Part shown: piece by piece, positions 19,216 to 24,263 of the stretch | How the letters are laid out: every line of letters begins with the position of its first letter | Numbering within the stretch: the first letter of the stretch is position 1 | NCBI GenBank assembly: GCA_022711575.1 | Contig: JAKLES010000005.1 | Span: 1 to 35,667, forward strand | Direction: 5' to 3' | Length of the DNA: 35,667 nt | DNA from: Deltaproteobacteria bacterium | GTDB taxonomy: Bacteria; Desulfobacterota; Syntrophia; Syntrophales; Smithellaceae | Made by a program: the position numbers and the translations under genes | Notes under the pieces: generated by a model | What the model saw: the letters and a program-made list of their open reading frames with translations, nothing else | Databases searched by the model: none | Told to the model about the DNA's origin: nothing

Positions 19216-20262
19216 ATGAAAAAAATGATCAGTAAAATTTTATTAAGTGTTTGTATACTACCGTGTATCGCGGCCATTCTCTTTGGCGTTTGGCTGTTCA
19301 TCTATGCCAAGACGCCAATTGATGCGGCAAAAGTTACAACCGTATTGGTTGATATCCCTACAGGCACCAGTTTTGTTCAGGTAACAAAGATTCTCAGTGA
19401 TGTTGGGTTGGTTGAAAACAGGCTTATGTTTTACAGCTTAGTCGCAGTCAAAAGAGGCGCCCGGTCAATTCGCGCCGGTGAATATGAGTTTACCACTGCT
19501 CTTTCCCCGGCTGAAGTAGTTGATAAACTTGTTCATGGGGACATCAAAAAATATTCAGTAACGATTCGTGAGGATTATTCACTGAAAGAAATTGCCGTGT
19601 GTCTCAAAGAAGACAAGTTGATCGATGAAAAAGCTTTTTTTGAGTTGGCTGAGGATAAAGTATTTTTATCCTCAGTGGGTGTTCGGGGACAATCAATTGA
19701 AGGATATCTTTTCCCTGACACATATTTCTTCAATCGTTCCATGACTACCAGACAGATTATGCGCACCATGGTCGATCGTTTCTGGAGTAAAGTTTCTCCG
19801 GAAATGATTAATAAAGCTGCTAAAAGAGGTTGGAATCCGCATCAATTTGTGACTTTTGCCTCACTTATCGGTAAAGAGTCCGGAAATTCCGCCGAAAAAC
19901 CAATGATTGCAGCTGTTTTTTATAATCGGATGAAAAAAGGAATGCACCTCCAGAGTGACCCTACTGCTGTTTATGATATGAAAGATTTTAATGGGAAAGT
20001 GCTGCGAAGTCATTATAGGAGAGAATCTCCTTATAATACTTATATGATCAAAGGGTTACCGCCTGGACCCATTGCCAATCCAGGCCTGGATTCATTTCGG
20101 GCGGTTCTCAATCCGGCGGCTGTCGATTACCTCTTTTTTGTTTCTCAAAGAGACGGTACTCATTTTTTCTCATCATCATTAGAGGCTCACAATGAAGCCG
20201 TACTGTATTTTCGCAACAACATCGCCAATCCTAACGAGCATGAACATGAAACTACACAATAG
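19216..20262 (+). CDS. mltG: Endolytic transglycosylase MltG
   Basis: Inner membrane lytic transglycosylase that cuts nascent glycan strands and is thought to end their elongation. One N-terminal membrane helix (about residues 7-30), a LysM-like subdomain (about 40-110) and the YceG catalytic domain to residue 348. The catalytic glutamate is E221 in ASLIGKES, and the QSDPTAVYD, SPYNTY and GLPPGPIANPG motifs are all present. The usual EKE ahead of it reads GKE here, but the catalytic residue itself is kept. No strong ribosome site precedes the ATG. Its location between ruvX and the mra cluster fits a cell wall function; the 277-base gap before mraZ contains the cluster promoter. Confidence 0.95.
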   Translation: MKKMISKILLSVCILPCIAAILFGVWLFIYAKTPIDAAKVTTVLVDIPTGTSFVQVTKILSDVGLVENRLMFYSLVAVKRGARSIRAGEYEFTTALSPAEVVDKLVHGDIKKYSVTIREDYSLKEIAVCLKEDKLIDEKAFFELAEDKVFLSSVGVRGQSIEGYLFPDTYFFNRSMTTRQIMRTMVDRFWSKVSPEMINKAAKRGWNPHQFVTFASLIGKESGNSAEKPMIAAVFYNRMKKGMHLQSDPTAVYDMKDFNGKVLRSHYRRESPYNTYMIKGLPPGPIANPGLDSFRAVLNPAAVDYLFFVSQRDGTHFFSSSLEAHNEAVLYFRNNIANPNEHEHETTQ

Positions 20263-20468
20263 CGATGATTTTCCTATTTATCTGATTAGTTTCATTGCGC
20301 TTTAGTATTCACCCCCGCTTATTTTTTTTACGCTATTTCCAACGAATAAAATCTCTTGAGGACTGTCCTAACAATCTTTCATGCCAATGCGTTGTCCTGA
20401 TTGATTTACATTACCTGTTTTCCCAGTAATTTTAAGTTAATTGATCATAAAAAAGATTCACTTTTTTC

Positions 20469-20497
20469 TTGACAAAGGCATTTTCCCTCTCTATAGT
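20469..20497 (+). promoter_or_regulatory. Sigma70-type promoter of the mraZ/dcw cluster
   Basis: Perfect -35 TTGACA (20469-20474), exactly 17 bases, and -10 TATAGT (20492-20497, five of six matches). The transcription start should be near 20504, so the leader to the mraZ GTG is about 36 bases. This is the best promoter in the window. It also shows that the longer reading frame beginning at 20441 is not the real mraZ start. Confidence 0.85.
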
Positions 20498-20504
20498 CGG
20501 CCAC

Positions 20505-20534
20505 GTGGGGTAAAGTGGTTTAATGTGGAGGGAA
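20505..20534 (+). promoter_or_regulatory. MraZ operator: three 10-base GTGG repeats
   Basis: Three direct repeats begin at 20505, 20515 and 20525: GTGGGGTAAA, GTGGTTTAAT and GTGGAGGGAA. They sit on one helix face at an exact 10-base period. This matches the tandem TGGG-type repeats bound by MraZ in E. coli. They lie immediately after the -10 element, and the third repeat contains the GGAGGG ribosome binding site, so MraZ bound here could block both promoter clearance and access to the DNA that encodes the leader. Confidence 0.78.
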
Positions 20535-20539
20535 CTTTA

Positions 20540-20986
20540 GTGTCTGTATTTCGAGGACAATATCATCACACCATCGATGAAAAAGGAAGAATCATTTTTC
20601 CGTCCCGGTTTCGTGAACTGTTTGCGGATAAATATGACAACCGCATGGTCATTACGAATTGGGATGGATATTTGATGGTTTTTCCATTCGATGAATGGCG
20701 CGTTATCGAGGAAAAAGTATCACATCAATCCATCTTACGCAAAGAAGTGCGTTCCTTTCAACGATTTTTCATGTCCGGTGCGGTGGATTGCAATCTCGAT
20801 GGTCAGGGCCGGGTACTGATTCCTCCCGCGTTACGTGAATATGCCAACCTGGAAAAAGAAATTATTCTGGCCGGTATGATTAAAGTCATCGAAATCTGGT
20901 CGAAAGACCGGTTCGAATCGGAAATGAAAAAAACCGGCGGTGATATTGCCCAGTTCAGTGATTACATGGCTGACCTGGGGATATGA
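20540..20986 (+). CDS. mraZ: Transcriptional regulator MraZ
   Basis: DNA-binding protein with two swapped-hairpin AbrB-like domains that forms rings and represses its own dcw operon. Both half-domains are clear: [23 protein letters not shown] near the N-terminus and [20 protein letters not shown] near residue 85. The start is GTG 20540: GGAGGG (20527-20532) stands seven bases before it, and the protein then begins MSVFRGQY, close to the family's usual MFRGEY. Length 148 is typical. Its stop codon lies a few bases before the rsmH start. The likely operator is directly upstream (separate entry). Confidence 0.95.
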
Positions 20987-20988
20987 TC

Positions 20989-21924
20989 ATGAGTGCTGAT
21001 TTTACTCACGAGCCGGTAATGCTTCAGGAAGTGCTGTTGTGGCTTGTGGGTAATAGGACCGGCGTTTACGTGGACGGTACGATAGGTGGCGCGGGGCATG
21101 CCCGCGCAATTTTGGAACAGACTGAAGCGACGCTGATCGGAATGGATTGCGATGCAGACGCCCTCATAGTCGCCGAAGAGAGACTGGCGTCATTTGGATC
21201 GCGTAAAATCCTGATCAAGGCAAATTTTGCCGACCTGGCCTCTGTTCTGAAAGCATTGCATGTTGATAAAGTTGATGGTGTGCTTTTGGATTTGGGTGTT
21301 TCGTCCCATCAACTGGATGCAGCGCACCGAGGATTTAGCTTCAGCCAGTCCGCGCCGCTTGATATGCGGATGGATCAGGATTTAAAGCGTTGCGCTTATG
21401 ATATTGTCAACTATTCTACGCCAACTGAACTGGAAAAGATTATCAGATTATACGGGGAAGAAAATATGGCCGCAAGAATCGCCAGGGCAATATCGAAAAA
21501 GAGGCAAACTTCGCCTATTGAGACGACGATTGAGCTCGCCGGTATCGTCGCTTCGGTCATGCCGGAAAGCATGAAGCGGCAGAAGATTCATCCCGCCACG
21601 CGAACTTTTCAGGCACTACGTATAGCCGTGAACCGAGAGCTCGATTCCATTGTTCCGGCAATCGAAGGCGCCATAGGCGCACTCTCGGTAGGAGGACGCG
21701 TGGGTGTGATTTCCTTCCACTCGCTGGAGGACCGGATCGTTAAAAATACCTTTCGCGATATGGCGGCGACCTGTGTTTGTCCAAAAGATATTCCTTACTG
21801 TGTTTGTCATAAAGAGGCCGTCGTAAAAGTTTTGACGCGTAAAGCGGTAGTGCCTTCCTCTGAAGAAATCAGGCAAAATCCGCGTGCCCGCAGCGCAAAG
21901 TTGCGCGTGGCAGAGAGGATTTAA
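20989..21924 (+). CDS. rsmH: 16S rRNA (cytosine1402-N4)-methyltransferase RsmH
   Basis: Methylates C1402 of 16S rRNA in the ribosomal P site; formerly MraW. The N-terminal HEPVMLQEVL motif, the SAM-binding VDGTIGGAGHARAIL and the MDCDADAL loop, and DLGVSSHQLDAAHRGFSF are all characteristic, as is the late FHSLEDRIVK followed by two C-x-C pairs (CVCPKDIPYCVC). Two ATG codons are possible, 20983 (overlapping the mraZ stop) and 20989. I prefer 20989 because GGGG at 20977-20980 is eight bases away from it. The protein is then 311 residues. ftsL starts directly at the next base after its stop codon. Confidence 0.97.
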   Translation: MSADFTHEPVMLQEVLLWLVGNRTGVYVDGTIGGAGHARAILEQTEATLIGMDCDADALIVAEERLASFGSRKILIKANFADLASVLKALHVDKVDGVLLDLGVSSHQLDAAHRGFSFSQSAPLDMRMDQDLKRCAYDIVNYSTPTELEKIIRLYGEENMAARIARAISKKRQTSPIETTIELAGIVASVMPESMKRQKIHPATRTFQALRIAVNRELDSIVPAIEGAIGALSVGGRVGVISFHSLEDRIVKNTFRDMAATCVCPKDIPYCVCHKEAVVKVLTRKAVVPSSEEIRQNPRARSAKLRVAERI

Positions 21925-22272
21925 ATGGCGCAGACGGTAGGAACACAGGCCATCTCGCAGGGCCGGCAGGTCAGGAAAACTGCTACTGCCTCTTTCGGTG
22001 CGAAGTATCCGACATTTATTGTTGTGGCTCTTGTTCTCATGTTTGTCGCACTGATTTATGTTGGTTCGCACATTCGCATGACTAAGATGGAGTACAGTAT
22101 TGCCGCAGCGTTAAATGCTAAGGGGAATTTACTGGAAGAACAAAAGAGACTGAAATTGGAATTAGCCATGCTGAAAGCACCGCAGAGAATAGAAGACATT
22201 GCCAGAAATAAGCTACAGATGTCCTATCCCGCTGCGGAGCAAGTGATTATTTTAAAACAAACGGGGAAGTGA
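21925..22272 (+). CDS. ftsL: Cell division protein FtsL
   Basis: Short bitopic division protein that forms the FtsQLB complex and activates FtsWI. At 115 residues it has a cytoplasmic tail of about 28 residues, one transmembrane helix (about 29-48: PTFIVVALVLMFVALIYV) and a periplasmic coiled coil (about 60-92, LLEEQKRLKLELAMLKAP) ending with an RIEDIARNKLQMSYP segment typical of FtsL. Sequence similarity within this family is low, so the call rests on architecture and on position between rsmH and ftsI. It overlaps the ftsI region by a few bases depending on the ftsI start. Confidence 0.9.
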   Translation: MAQTVGTQAISQGRQVRKTATASFGAKYPTFIVVALVLMFVALIYVGSHIRMTKMEYSIAAALNAKGNLLEEQKRLKLELAMLKAPQRIEDIARNKLQMSYPAAEQVIILKQTGK

Positions 22273-22274
22273 GA

Positions 22275-24263
22275 ATGACGGCAGAATCAAAAAAATGGCT
22301 GAAGTTCCGGCTAGCCAGCATTCTGGCGATTTTTTTGATTTTGTTTATTGCGTTATTGTCCCGCGCCTTTCAATTGCAGGTTTTATCCGGAGAGAAATTA
22401 AAAAAGCTGGCCGTCAGACAGCATATCACCACGTTACCCATTCATTCCGAAAGGGGCATGATTTATGACCGCAACGGTGAGAAACTGGCCATGTCGGTAT
22501 TGGCGGATTCCGTGTGCGCCGACCCGACAAGGATTACCGATCAGTCGAAAGCGTCCCGTAAGATCGCGGCTATTCTGAATCTTAATTCATCCACCATTTT
22601 TAAAAGAATTTCCGAGCCGAAGAGTTTCTGCTGGCTGGCCAGAAAAATTTCTGCCGAGCAGGCGGCTCAGGTAGAAGCGGCGGGCATTGAAGGTGTCTTT
22701 CTGATCAAAGAACCGAAGCGATTTTATCCGAACGGCCCATTGGCGGCTCATTTGATCGGATTCTCCGGTTTTGATGCCGAGGGCCTGGAAGGACTCGAAA
22801 AGAAATATGATGATTATTTAAAAGGAACACCGGAAAAACTGACCTGGGCCAGAGATGCGAAAGGGAAAAAACTTTTTCTGCATGTTGAACGGAATCTTTC
22901 TCCCAAAGATGAGAGTGCCAACCTGGTTCTGACCATTGACAGCCGCATTCAGTACCTGGTGGAAACGCATTTGAAGGAAGCTGTTTTGGATAAAGGCGCA
23001 AAAGGCGGTATTGCGATTGTCATGGATCCGAAAACGGGTGAAATTTTAGCTATGGCCAACGAGAAAGGATTCAATCCTAACAACATCACGGGGCTGACGT
23101 CCGATGTATGGCGCAACCGTGCGATTGCGGACTCGTTTGATCCAGGATCAACTTTTAAGCCTTTTCTGGTTGCCGGCGCCCTGGAAGAAAAAGTTGTTAG
23201 GGAATCAGACCGGTTTTACTGTGAGAATGGACATTATACCGTTGCCAATCGGGTGATTCGTGAAGCCAACCGGAAACGTCACGGCTATCTGTCCGTACGT
23301 GATATTCTAAAGTACTCCAGTAATATTGGCTCCGCAAAAATCGCGGAAAAGCTTGGCCGGGAAAAGTATTATTCCTACATTAAAAATTTCGGTTTTGGTT
23401 CCAGAACAGGAATTGATTTATCCGGTGAGGCTGCAGGAGTTTTAAGGCCTGCGAAGAGTTGGACCAGGGTGGACACGGCGGCGATCGCTTTTGGCCAGGG
23501 CATCTCGGTGACGGCCATTCAGCTGATTAGCGCTATGTCGGCGATAGCCAACAACGGGGTTTTGATGAAACCCTTCATTGTGCGCGGTCTGACCGATAGA
23601 AATAACAACCCGGTTAAAATGTATGCGCCGGAAGCTGTGCGCCGTGTTGTTTCTCCGGCGACAGCCAGACGAATGACCGCCATGCTGACACAAGTGGTTG
23701 GTTCAGCGGACGGCACAGGTAAAAACGCTCATATCATCAATGTGGAGGTTGCCGGTAAAACCGGGACCGCGCAGAAATTCGATTTTGCTCGCGGCGTTTA
23801 TTCATCGGAAAGGGTTCGCACTTCCTTTATTGGATTTTTCCCCTCCGATAATCCCCAAGTTGTGATTCTCGTAATTCTCGATGAACCGCAGCGCGATAAG
23901 TGGGGCGGTGTGGCCGCAGCGCCGGTATTTAAAAATATCGGCGAACAGATTCTCAACTGTTTCAAGACAAACATTCGGGAAACGCCGGTGTTTGAACCTC
24001 AAAAGACAAACAATCTGCAATTGGCTTCAGCAGAAAAATCTATTGTTGAGGATGTGTCGGCAGCTGAAGATGATCTTGATGATGACTCCCTCATGCCGGA
24101 CTTTACCGGCTTGACCATTCGGGAGGCGTTAAAAATATCGAAATCCCGATCGATTGAGCTGCAGATATCTGGTAATGGCTGGGCTGTGCGACAGCTCCCA
24201 AAACCAGGTTCGGTTTTAGGCGATGAGCGACTGTGTAAAATTATATTTGAGATGAAAAACTGA
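22275..24263 (+). CDS. ftsI: Penicillin-binding protein 3 (FtsI), with C-terminal PASTA domain
   Basis: Septal transpeptidase that crosslinks peptidoglycan with FtsW. One N-terminal membrane helix (about residues 13-33), a dimerisation domain with the RGMIYDRNGEKLA motif, then the transpeptidase domain. Its active-site motifs are S292-T-F-K, S348-S-N and K495-T-G-T. A PASTA domain follows (about 605-662: MPDFTGLTIREALK), a feature of Gram-positive-type PBPs and of deltaproteobacterial FtsI, absent from E. coli PBP3. ATG 22275 is preferred over GTG 22269 because a GGGG lies eight bases before it. A Ser/Asp-rich linker joins the transpeptidase to PASTA. Confidence 0.95.
   Translation: MTAESKKWLKFRLASILAIFLILFIALLSRAFQLQVLSGEKLKKLAVRQHITTLPIHSERGMIYDRNGEKLAMSVLADSVCADPTRITDQSKASRKIAAILNLNSSTIFKRISEPKSFCWLARKISAEQAAQVEAAGIEGVFLIKEPKRFYPNGPLAAHLIGFSGFDAEGLEGLEKKYDDYLKGTPEKLTWARDAKGKKLFLHVERNLSPKDESANLVLTIDSRIQYLVETHLKEAVLDKGAKGGIAIVMDPKTGEILAMANEKGFNPNNITGLTSDVWRNRAIADSFDPGSTFKPFLVAGALEEKVVRESDRFYCENGHYTVANRVIREANRKRHGYLSVRDILKYSSNIGSAKIAEKLGREKYYSYIKNFGFGSRTGIDLSGEAAGVLRPAKSWTRVDTAAIAFGQGISVTAIQLISAMSAIANNGVLMKPFIVRGLTDRNNNPVKMYAPEAVRRVVSPATARRMTAMLTQVVGSADGTGKNAHIINVEVAGKTGTAQKFDFARGVYSSERVRTSFIGFFPSDNPQVVILVILDEPQRDKWGGVAAAPVFKNIGEQILNCFKTNIRETPVFEPQKTNNLQLASAEKSIVEDVSAAEDDLDDDSLMPDFTGLTIREALKISKSRSIELQISGNGWAVRQLPKPGSVLGDERLCKIIFEMKN

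Follow-up and report, generated by a model that had tools for sequence, protein, structure and literature searches.

The window, a stretch of 35,667 nt analyzed as a whole, carries a dcw cluster whose first gene, mraZ, encodes a predicted regulator and overlaps the following gene, rsmH, by 4 nt. Three copies of the tetranucleotide GTGG, here called boxes 1 to 3, adjoin the 5' end of mraZ, and their coordinates are listed in Table 1 together with those of the promoter and the Shine-Dalgarno (SD) sequence. MraZ, a regulator that is very widespread among bacteria, binds DNA; it is built of two AbrB-like halves and, in other species, assembles into rings. The product of mraZ in the window is, as predicted from its sequence, a full MraZ with two MraZ/AbrB-like halves and a D-x3-R motif in each; D13-R17 and D87-R91 are invariant (6/6 aligned sequences), and solved MraZ chains are matched at about 1e-10 to 1e-11.

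Table 1. Features at the 5' end of the dcw cluster, in window coordinates
Feature	Position	Strand	Basis
-35 hexamer TTGACA	20469..20474	+	sequence; TTGAC[A/T] with a 17- or 18-nt spacer in 77/79 order-set leaders
-10 hexamer TATAGT	20492..20497	+	sequence; TATAGT in 43/79 order-set leaders
MraZ box 1 GTGG (predicted)	20505..20508	+	decamer GTGGGGTAAA from 20505; kept in 78/78 anchored leaders
MraZ box 2 GTGG (predicted), AAA before	20515..20518	+	decamer GTGGTTTAAT from 20515
MraZ box 3 GTGG (predicted)	20525..20528	+	decamer GTGGAGGGAA from 20525
Shine-Dalgarno (SD) GGAGGG	20527..20532	+	first GG common to box 3; [G/C/A]TGG[A/G]GG in 77/79 order-set leaders
mraZ, predicted regulator, GTG start	20540..20986	+	PF02381 E 1.5e-29, two stretches; solved MraZ chains
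rsmH (mraW), next dcw cluster gene	20983..21924	+	PF01795 E 7.9e-115

A sequence-only reading of this DNA had described GTGG repeats at 20505, 20515 and 20525, a near-consensus promoter before the GTG start and a ribosome site, GGAGGG, held in the third repeat. All of this is found in the sequence: the repeat positions are exact, the promoter (TTGACA-17-TATAGT, 20469-20497) matches 11 of 12 consensus bases, and the SD-like run falls within repeat 3, 7 nt ahead of the start codon. Shuffles of the promoter region contain on average 0.9 promoter-like sites. From the promoter spacing, transcription is predicted to start at about 20503-20506. Box 1 begins after a gap of 7 nt from the -10 hexamer, and the boxes thus lie downstream of the -10 and over the predicted transcription start, as in Escherichia coli and B. 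cenocepacia, the promoter of the window being itself a prediction.

Positions 20505-20534 consist of the three decamers of Table 1 placed end to end, among which only GTGG and a few A/T positions recur, with pairwise differences at 3 to 5 of the 10 positions. When the 100-nt leader was shuffled 200,000 times with its dinucleotides preserved, a single shuffle had three GTGG at period 10, the period having been picked after the data were seen. Over the window there are 3 GTGG pairs at period 10 against 0.67 expected, a number reached by 4 of 100 shuffles; the one pair that lies elsewhere is at 23900, inside the open reading frame 22269-24263. The window's own 1.5-Mb assembly contains one triple, at mraZ, and because a backwards control pattern also occurs once in that assembly, a single genome is not decisive. 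The own-genome count was accordingly rejected as proof, the control having given an equal number.

The leaders of related mraZ genes were collected as an order set, composed of the best 80 of 101 relatives by similarity plus the window, which amounts to 81 loci and 79 distinct leaders; most of the relatives are MAGs deposited under the names Syntrophaceae, Syntrophales or Deltaproteobacteria. When these leaders are aligned, both the 10-base period and GTGG prove to be conserved: an exact triple at period 10 is present in 75 of 79 and at least a pair in 78. No triple occurs at periods 5-9 or 11-15 in any of the 79 leaders, pairs at those periods numbering at most 2. The nearest relative, Syntrophaceae UBA8930, whose MraZ is 96% identical, has all three boxes. 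Among the 78 leaders that could be anchored, the 10-nt step, the T of each box and the AA before box 2 are invariant except in L117, the first G of box 3 is kept in 75 and its T in all 78, and box 1 is mostly GTGGAG. Across the order-set leaders the 10-nt step is fixed while the flanks vary. That the repeats arose by chance, or simply accompany G-rich ribosome sites, is a view to which the single triple and single control match of the window's own genome would lend something, but conservation at one period alone, with no triple at period 10 in 3950 shuffles of the order-set leaders or in 5250 of the phylum set described below, makes it extremely improbable.

The gap between the -10 hexamer and box 1 is 6-9 nt in 70 order-set leaders, 11 nt in one and -2 nt in six, with two leaders having no promoter call, and the distance from box 3 to the start codon is 13-19 nt in 77 leaders and 44 nt in one. 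The spread of 6 to 9 nt seen in the majority of leaders led us to reject a strict phasing of operator and promoter. Six leaders (L058, L059, L061, L064, L080 and L084) have the gap of -2; their box 1 and -10 hexamer overlap (TATAGTGG or TATTGTGG), which brings the whole operator closer to the promoter by about one helical turn, with a leader shorter by the same amount.

To our knowledge, the requirements of an MraZ operator have been defined in few species. The E. coli promoter Pmra and its MraZ operator were reportedly described by Eraso et al. in 2014. In the leader of E. coli K-12, TTGACA is followed by 18 nt, TAAACT, a further 7 nt and then three GTGG at 10-base steps ahead of mraZ. The sequence-only reading had implied that boxes downstream of the -10 distinguish the window from E. 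coli; that contrast falls away, as K-12 has the same layout with the same 7-nt gap, and PMC7761207 agrees. What does differ is the SD, which in K-12 comes after box 3, itself 24 nt before the ATG, whereas in the window box 3 is part of the SD. The B. cenocepacia MraZ site is likewise reported to lie downstream of the -10 "as in E. coli" and to overlap the transcription start; it is built from a repeated GTG motif, as 7-nt repeats with 3-nt spacers, but has four repeats, and 100 bp separate the mapped transcription start from the start codon further down (PMC7761207). Binding of MraZ to GTG-core repeats of period 10 is reported for B. cenocepacia (PMC7761207) and for Mollicutes (PMC5282649), where the site is given as (AAAGTG[T/G]N3)3 (PMC8475190, PMC5282649). 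The window shares with the Mollicutes site the GTG core, the period of 10 and the AAA before box 2, but its boxes 1 and 3 are without the full AAA and its last box carries the SD. Box 2 fits the Mollicutes heptamer AAAGTG[T/G], and boxes 1 and 3 do not fully do so; neither does box 1 of E. coli.

We consider it very probable that the three GTGG repeats are an MraZ operator, at which MraZ positioned over the start lowers transcription of mraZ and of the dcw cluster, and that box 3 doubles as the ribosome site. The assignment of an MraZ-type operator, made in the sequence-only reading and still a prediction, is strongly supported by conservation in the order and the phylum and by its placement at mraZ. 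Autorepression, with MraZ occupying the start site, is the likely mechanism, and repression by promoter occupation appears most likely because the boxes lie over the predicted start site. MraZ would dock on GTGG cores that face one side of the helix, in boxes that span roughly +1 to +25 of the transcript; docked MraZ would keep RNA polymerase from the promoter or hold polymerase there, with less transcription of mraZ and the downstream dcw genes as the expected result. In the Syntrophales, the last box has also become the ribosome site of mraZ. Boxes at about +1 to +25 would fall within the RNA polymerase footprint, which makes it no less likely that polymerase is excluded than that its escape from the promoter is blocked, the latter being one of several steric modes and the one suggested from the sequence. 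We infer MraZ binding, repression and its steric mode, and the effect would extend to the whole cluster, judging from gene order and from other species.

MraZ bound at the same operator could have the opposite sign and raise dcw transcription, as is suggested by N. elongata, in which loss of mraZ is reported to lower dcw transcripts and overexpression to raise them (PMC9395523). We regard this as improbable for the window, given that boxes over and past the predicted start site would be a rare place for an activator, that box 1 lies over the -10 in six leaders, and that MraZ-mediated repression is reported in both E. coli and M. genitalium (PMC8475190, PMC7761207).

The triple was then counted in 59 related genomes, and 53 of them contain it. 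There are 55 matches in total, of which 53 are just upstream of the mraZ match (coordinates compared by eye), and the backwards control pattern gives 8 matches in the same 59 genomes. Two genomes without an mraZ hit (G016 and G055) have no triple. These counts are most simply read as pointing to an MraZ with a single strong target, the cluster it belongs to, though the genomes could also contain isolated or paired boxes at other places. For E. coli, in contrast, PMC7761207 reports that MraZ affects about 23% of genes, whereas triples in the related genomes are nearly confined to mraZ. Single and strictly phased operators throughout an order make clean targets for binding work, for which the prediction is one main MraZ target. 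The only two triples away from mraZ (G010:C108:36998-37021 and G015:C48:2847-2870) are of similar make, GTGG[T/C]CTTGTGTGG..., and a wider regulon defined by the triple was rejected, two such matches in 59 genomes being fewer than the 8 of the control; no second target is claimed. Separately, one genome (G071) contains two arrays of GTGGACAGGT-like 10-base repeats off mraZ, at C1:1932764-1932837 and C1:2488503-2488546, and another (G188) has an identical 24-mer, GTGGATGCAGGTGGATTTTTGTGG, on contigs C38, C61, C73, C74 and C81, which resembles a dispersed repeat.

For the phylum set, 137 Desulfobacterota genomes with mraZ yielded 110 loci that were read and 105 distinct leaders outside the order, after 3 loci without a usable N-terminus and 2 duplicates were dropped. 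Four of the 27 genomes left out are the window's and those of its own family, and the others are mostly weaker MraZ matches, a possible bias in the counts. Start codons were called by profile and are doubtful in L139, L142, L146 and L147. At least two GTGG at period 10 are present in 89 of the 105 leaders and at least three in 50, compared with 0.5% and 0% of shuffles, respectively; at other periods triples are absent and pairs number 2 at most, and 16 of the 105 leaders have no GTGG pair at period 10. The place of the boxes relative to the start varies outside the order, from 5 to 90 nt, and since the boxes are elsewhere relative to the start in those leaders, the SD overlap is no part of the general system. 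In five leaders (L199, L204, L208, L233 and L185) the last GTGG box starts 7-10 nt ahead of the ATG and no other SD is visible, so translation of mraZ may there rely on a weak site that is part of the operator.

Beyond the phylum, a named set of 15 bacteria from other groups was assembled from 14 of 31 plasmid-collection records and K-12, with six of the 15 starts being tblastn match ends rather than annotated starts. At least two GTGG at period 10 are seen in 13 of the 15, the exceptions being Monoglobus and a Burkholderia with GTG-only repeats. Among 13 genomes without an mraZ hit, six have a near-full rsmH match, and two of these are unusable owing to a run of N or a contig end; none of the four usable genomes, three of which are from one family, has a GTGG pair before rsmH. 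Such an apparent loss of the boxes together with mraZ would weakly support the operator reading.

A G-rich leader might also be selected as a G-quadruplex, in DNA or mRNA, and not as a protein site. A G-quadruplex is reported downstream of the Staphylococcus aureus mraZ promoter (PMC11796246), likewise in a G-rich stretch, and a two-tetrad motif with loops of up to 9 nt is found in 77 of the 79 order-set leaders, although any GTGG triple plus SD would fit this motif. Different from the S. aureus case is that a three-tetrad motif (four runs of at least three G, loops of up to 12 nt) is present in none of the 79 leaders. As a quadruplex has no need of an exact 10-nt step, of the T in each box or of the AA before box 2, all invariant bar L117, we judge selection for such a structure to be very unlikely. 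Control at the RNA level, in which MraZ or a structured leader would act on the mRNA at the ribosome site, is in keeping with an SD held in box 3 in 77 of 79 leaders. Such control is nevertheless highly unlikely: the leader folds worse than its shuffles (z +1.6, 193 of 200 shuffles being at least as stable), no Rfam family is matched in 20260-20700, and the distance from box to start outside the order has the wide range given above. The G-quadruplex, the structured RNA leader and RNA-level control were thus tested and are not favored by the motif, fold and Rfam results, and we retain the MraZ operator as the explanation of the boxes.

The fusion of box 3 with the SD has a narrower distribution than the boxes. 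By a loose test, GTGG[A/G]GG at 4-13 nt from the start, it is present in 75 of the 79 order-set leaders. Only 2 of the 105 phylum-set leaders pass this test and both are unclear, L139 having a doubtful start and L222 having the motif apart from its tandem array, and the fusion is absent from all 15 bacteria of the named set. At the level of whole genomes, GTGGNNNNAAGTGGNNNNNNNTGGRGG occurs once each in 115 of 128 genomes, the window's own and 127 others with a completeness of 85% or more, covering 20 of the 21 sampled families of the order, and the backwards control gives 2. A stricter fusion pattern is found in 114 of 155 genomes of any completeness, with 0 for the control. The sole family without the fused pattern (G054) has a degenerate array. 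At 25 further GG[A/G]GG sites in front of open frames of these loci, GT comes ahead of the motif once.

The T of box 3, kept in every anchored leader, is not required by the SD. Within the order set, the last G of GGAGG is kept in 77 of 78 leaders, and the position that corresponds to it in box 1 is C or T in 74 of 78; this G looks specific to the SD because it has no counterpart in box 1. It had been claimed from the sequence that operator and ribosome site cannot vary independently, and this proved too strong, as the two are separable, though rarely (L122, L132, L133, L093 and L019). The first three of these (3/79) keep GGAGG and have lost the first G of box 3, while L093 keeps box 3 and has its start codon 44 nt downstream of the box. 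The pattern of substitutions suggests that box 3 is constrained both as a box and as an SD; these constraints look real and can be separated.

Whereas the operator itself is of a known kind, its fusion with the SD looks new as an element. No report of such a fusion was found among the titles and abstracts searched, which cover little of the subscription literature and give no proof of novelty. The fusion offers a natural example of transcription control and translation drawing on a single stretch, and it lends itself to base-by-base dissection. A further and more tentative idea, which we hold to be possible yet rather unlikely, is that box 3 of the Syntrophales is dual-coded and under two simultaneous selections, one for MraZ on its first G and T and one for the ribosome on the last GG of GGAGG. 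The autoregulatory loop would then be buffered, because one change can weaken operator and SD together, and MraZ might, in some members, compete with the ribosome on the mRNA. If this were true, a mutation that lowers MraZ synthesis would also loosen MraZ's own operator, and translation strength and repression would not easily drift apart.

One leader of the order set, L019 (from genome G052), has an intact box 3 and, just after it, a separate SD-like GGGAGGGG. Another genome of the same genus, G228, has the fused form, which makes this pair a natural separation of the two signals.
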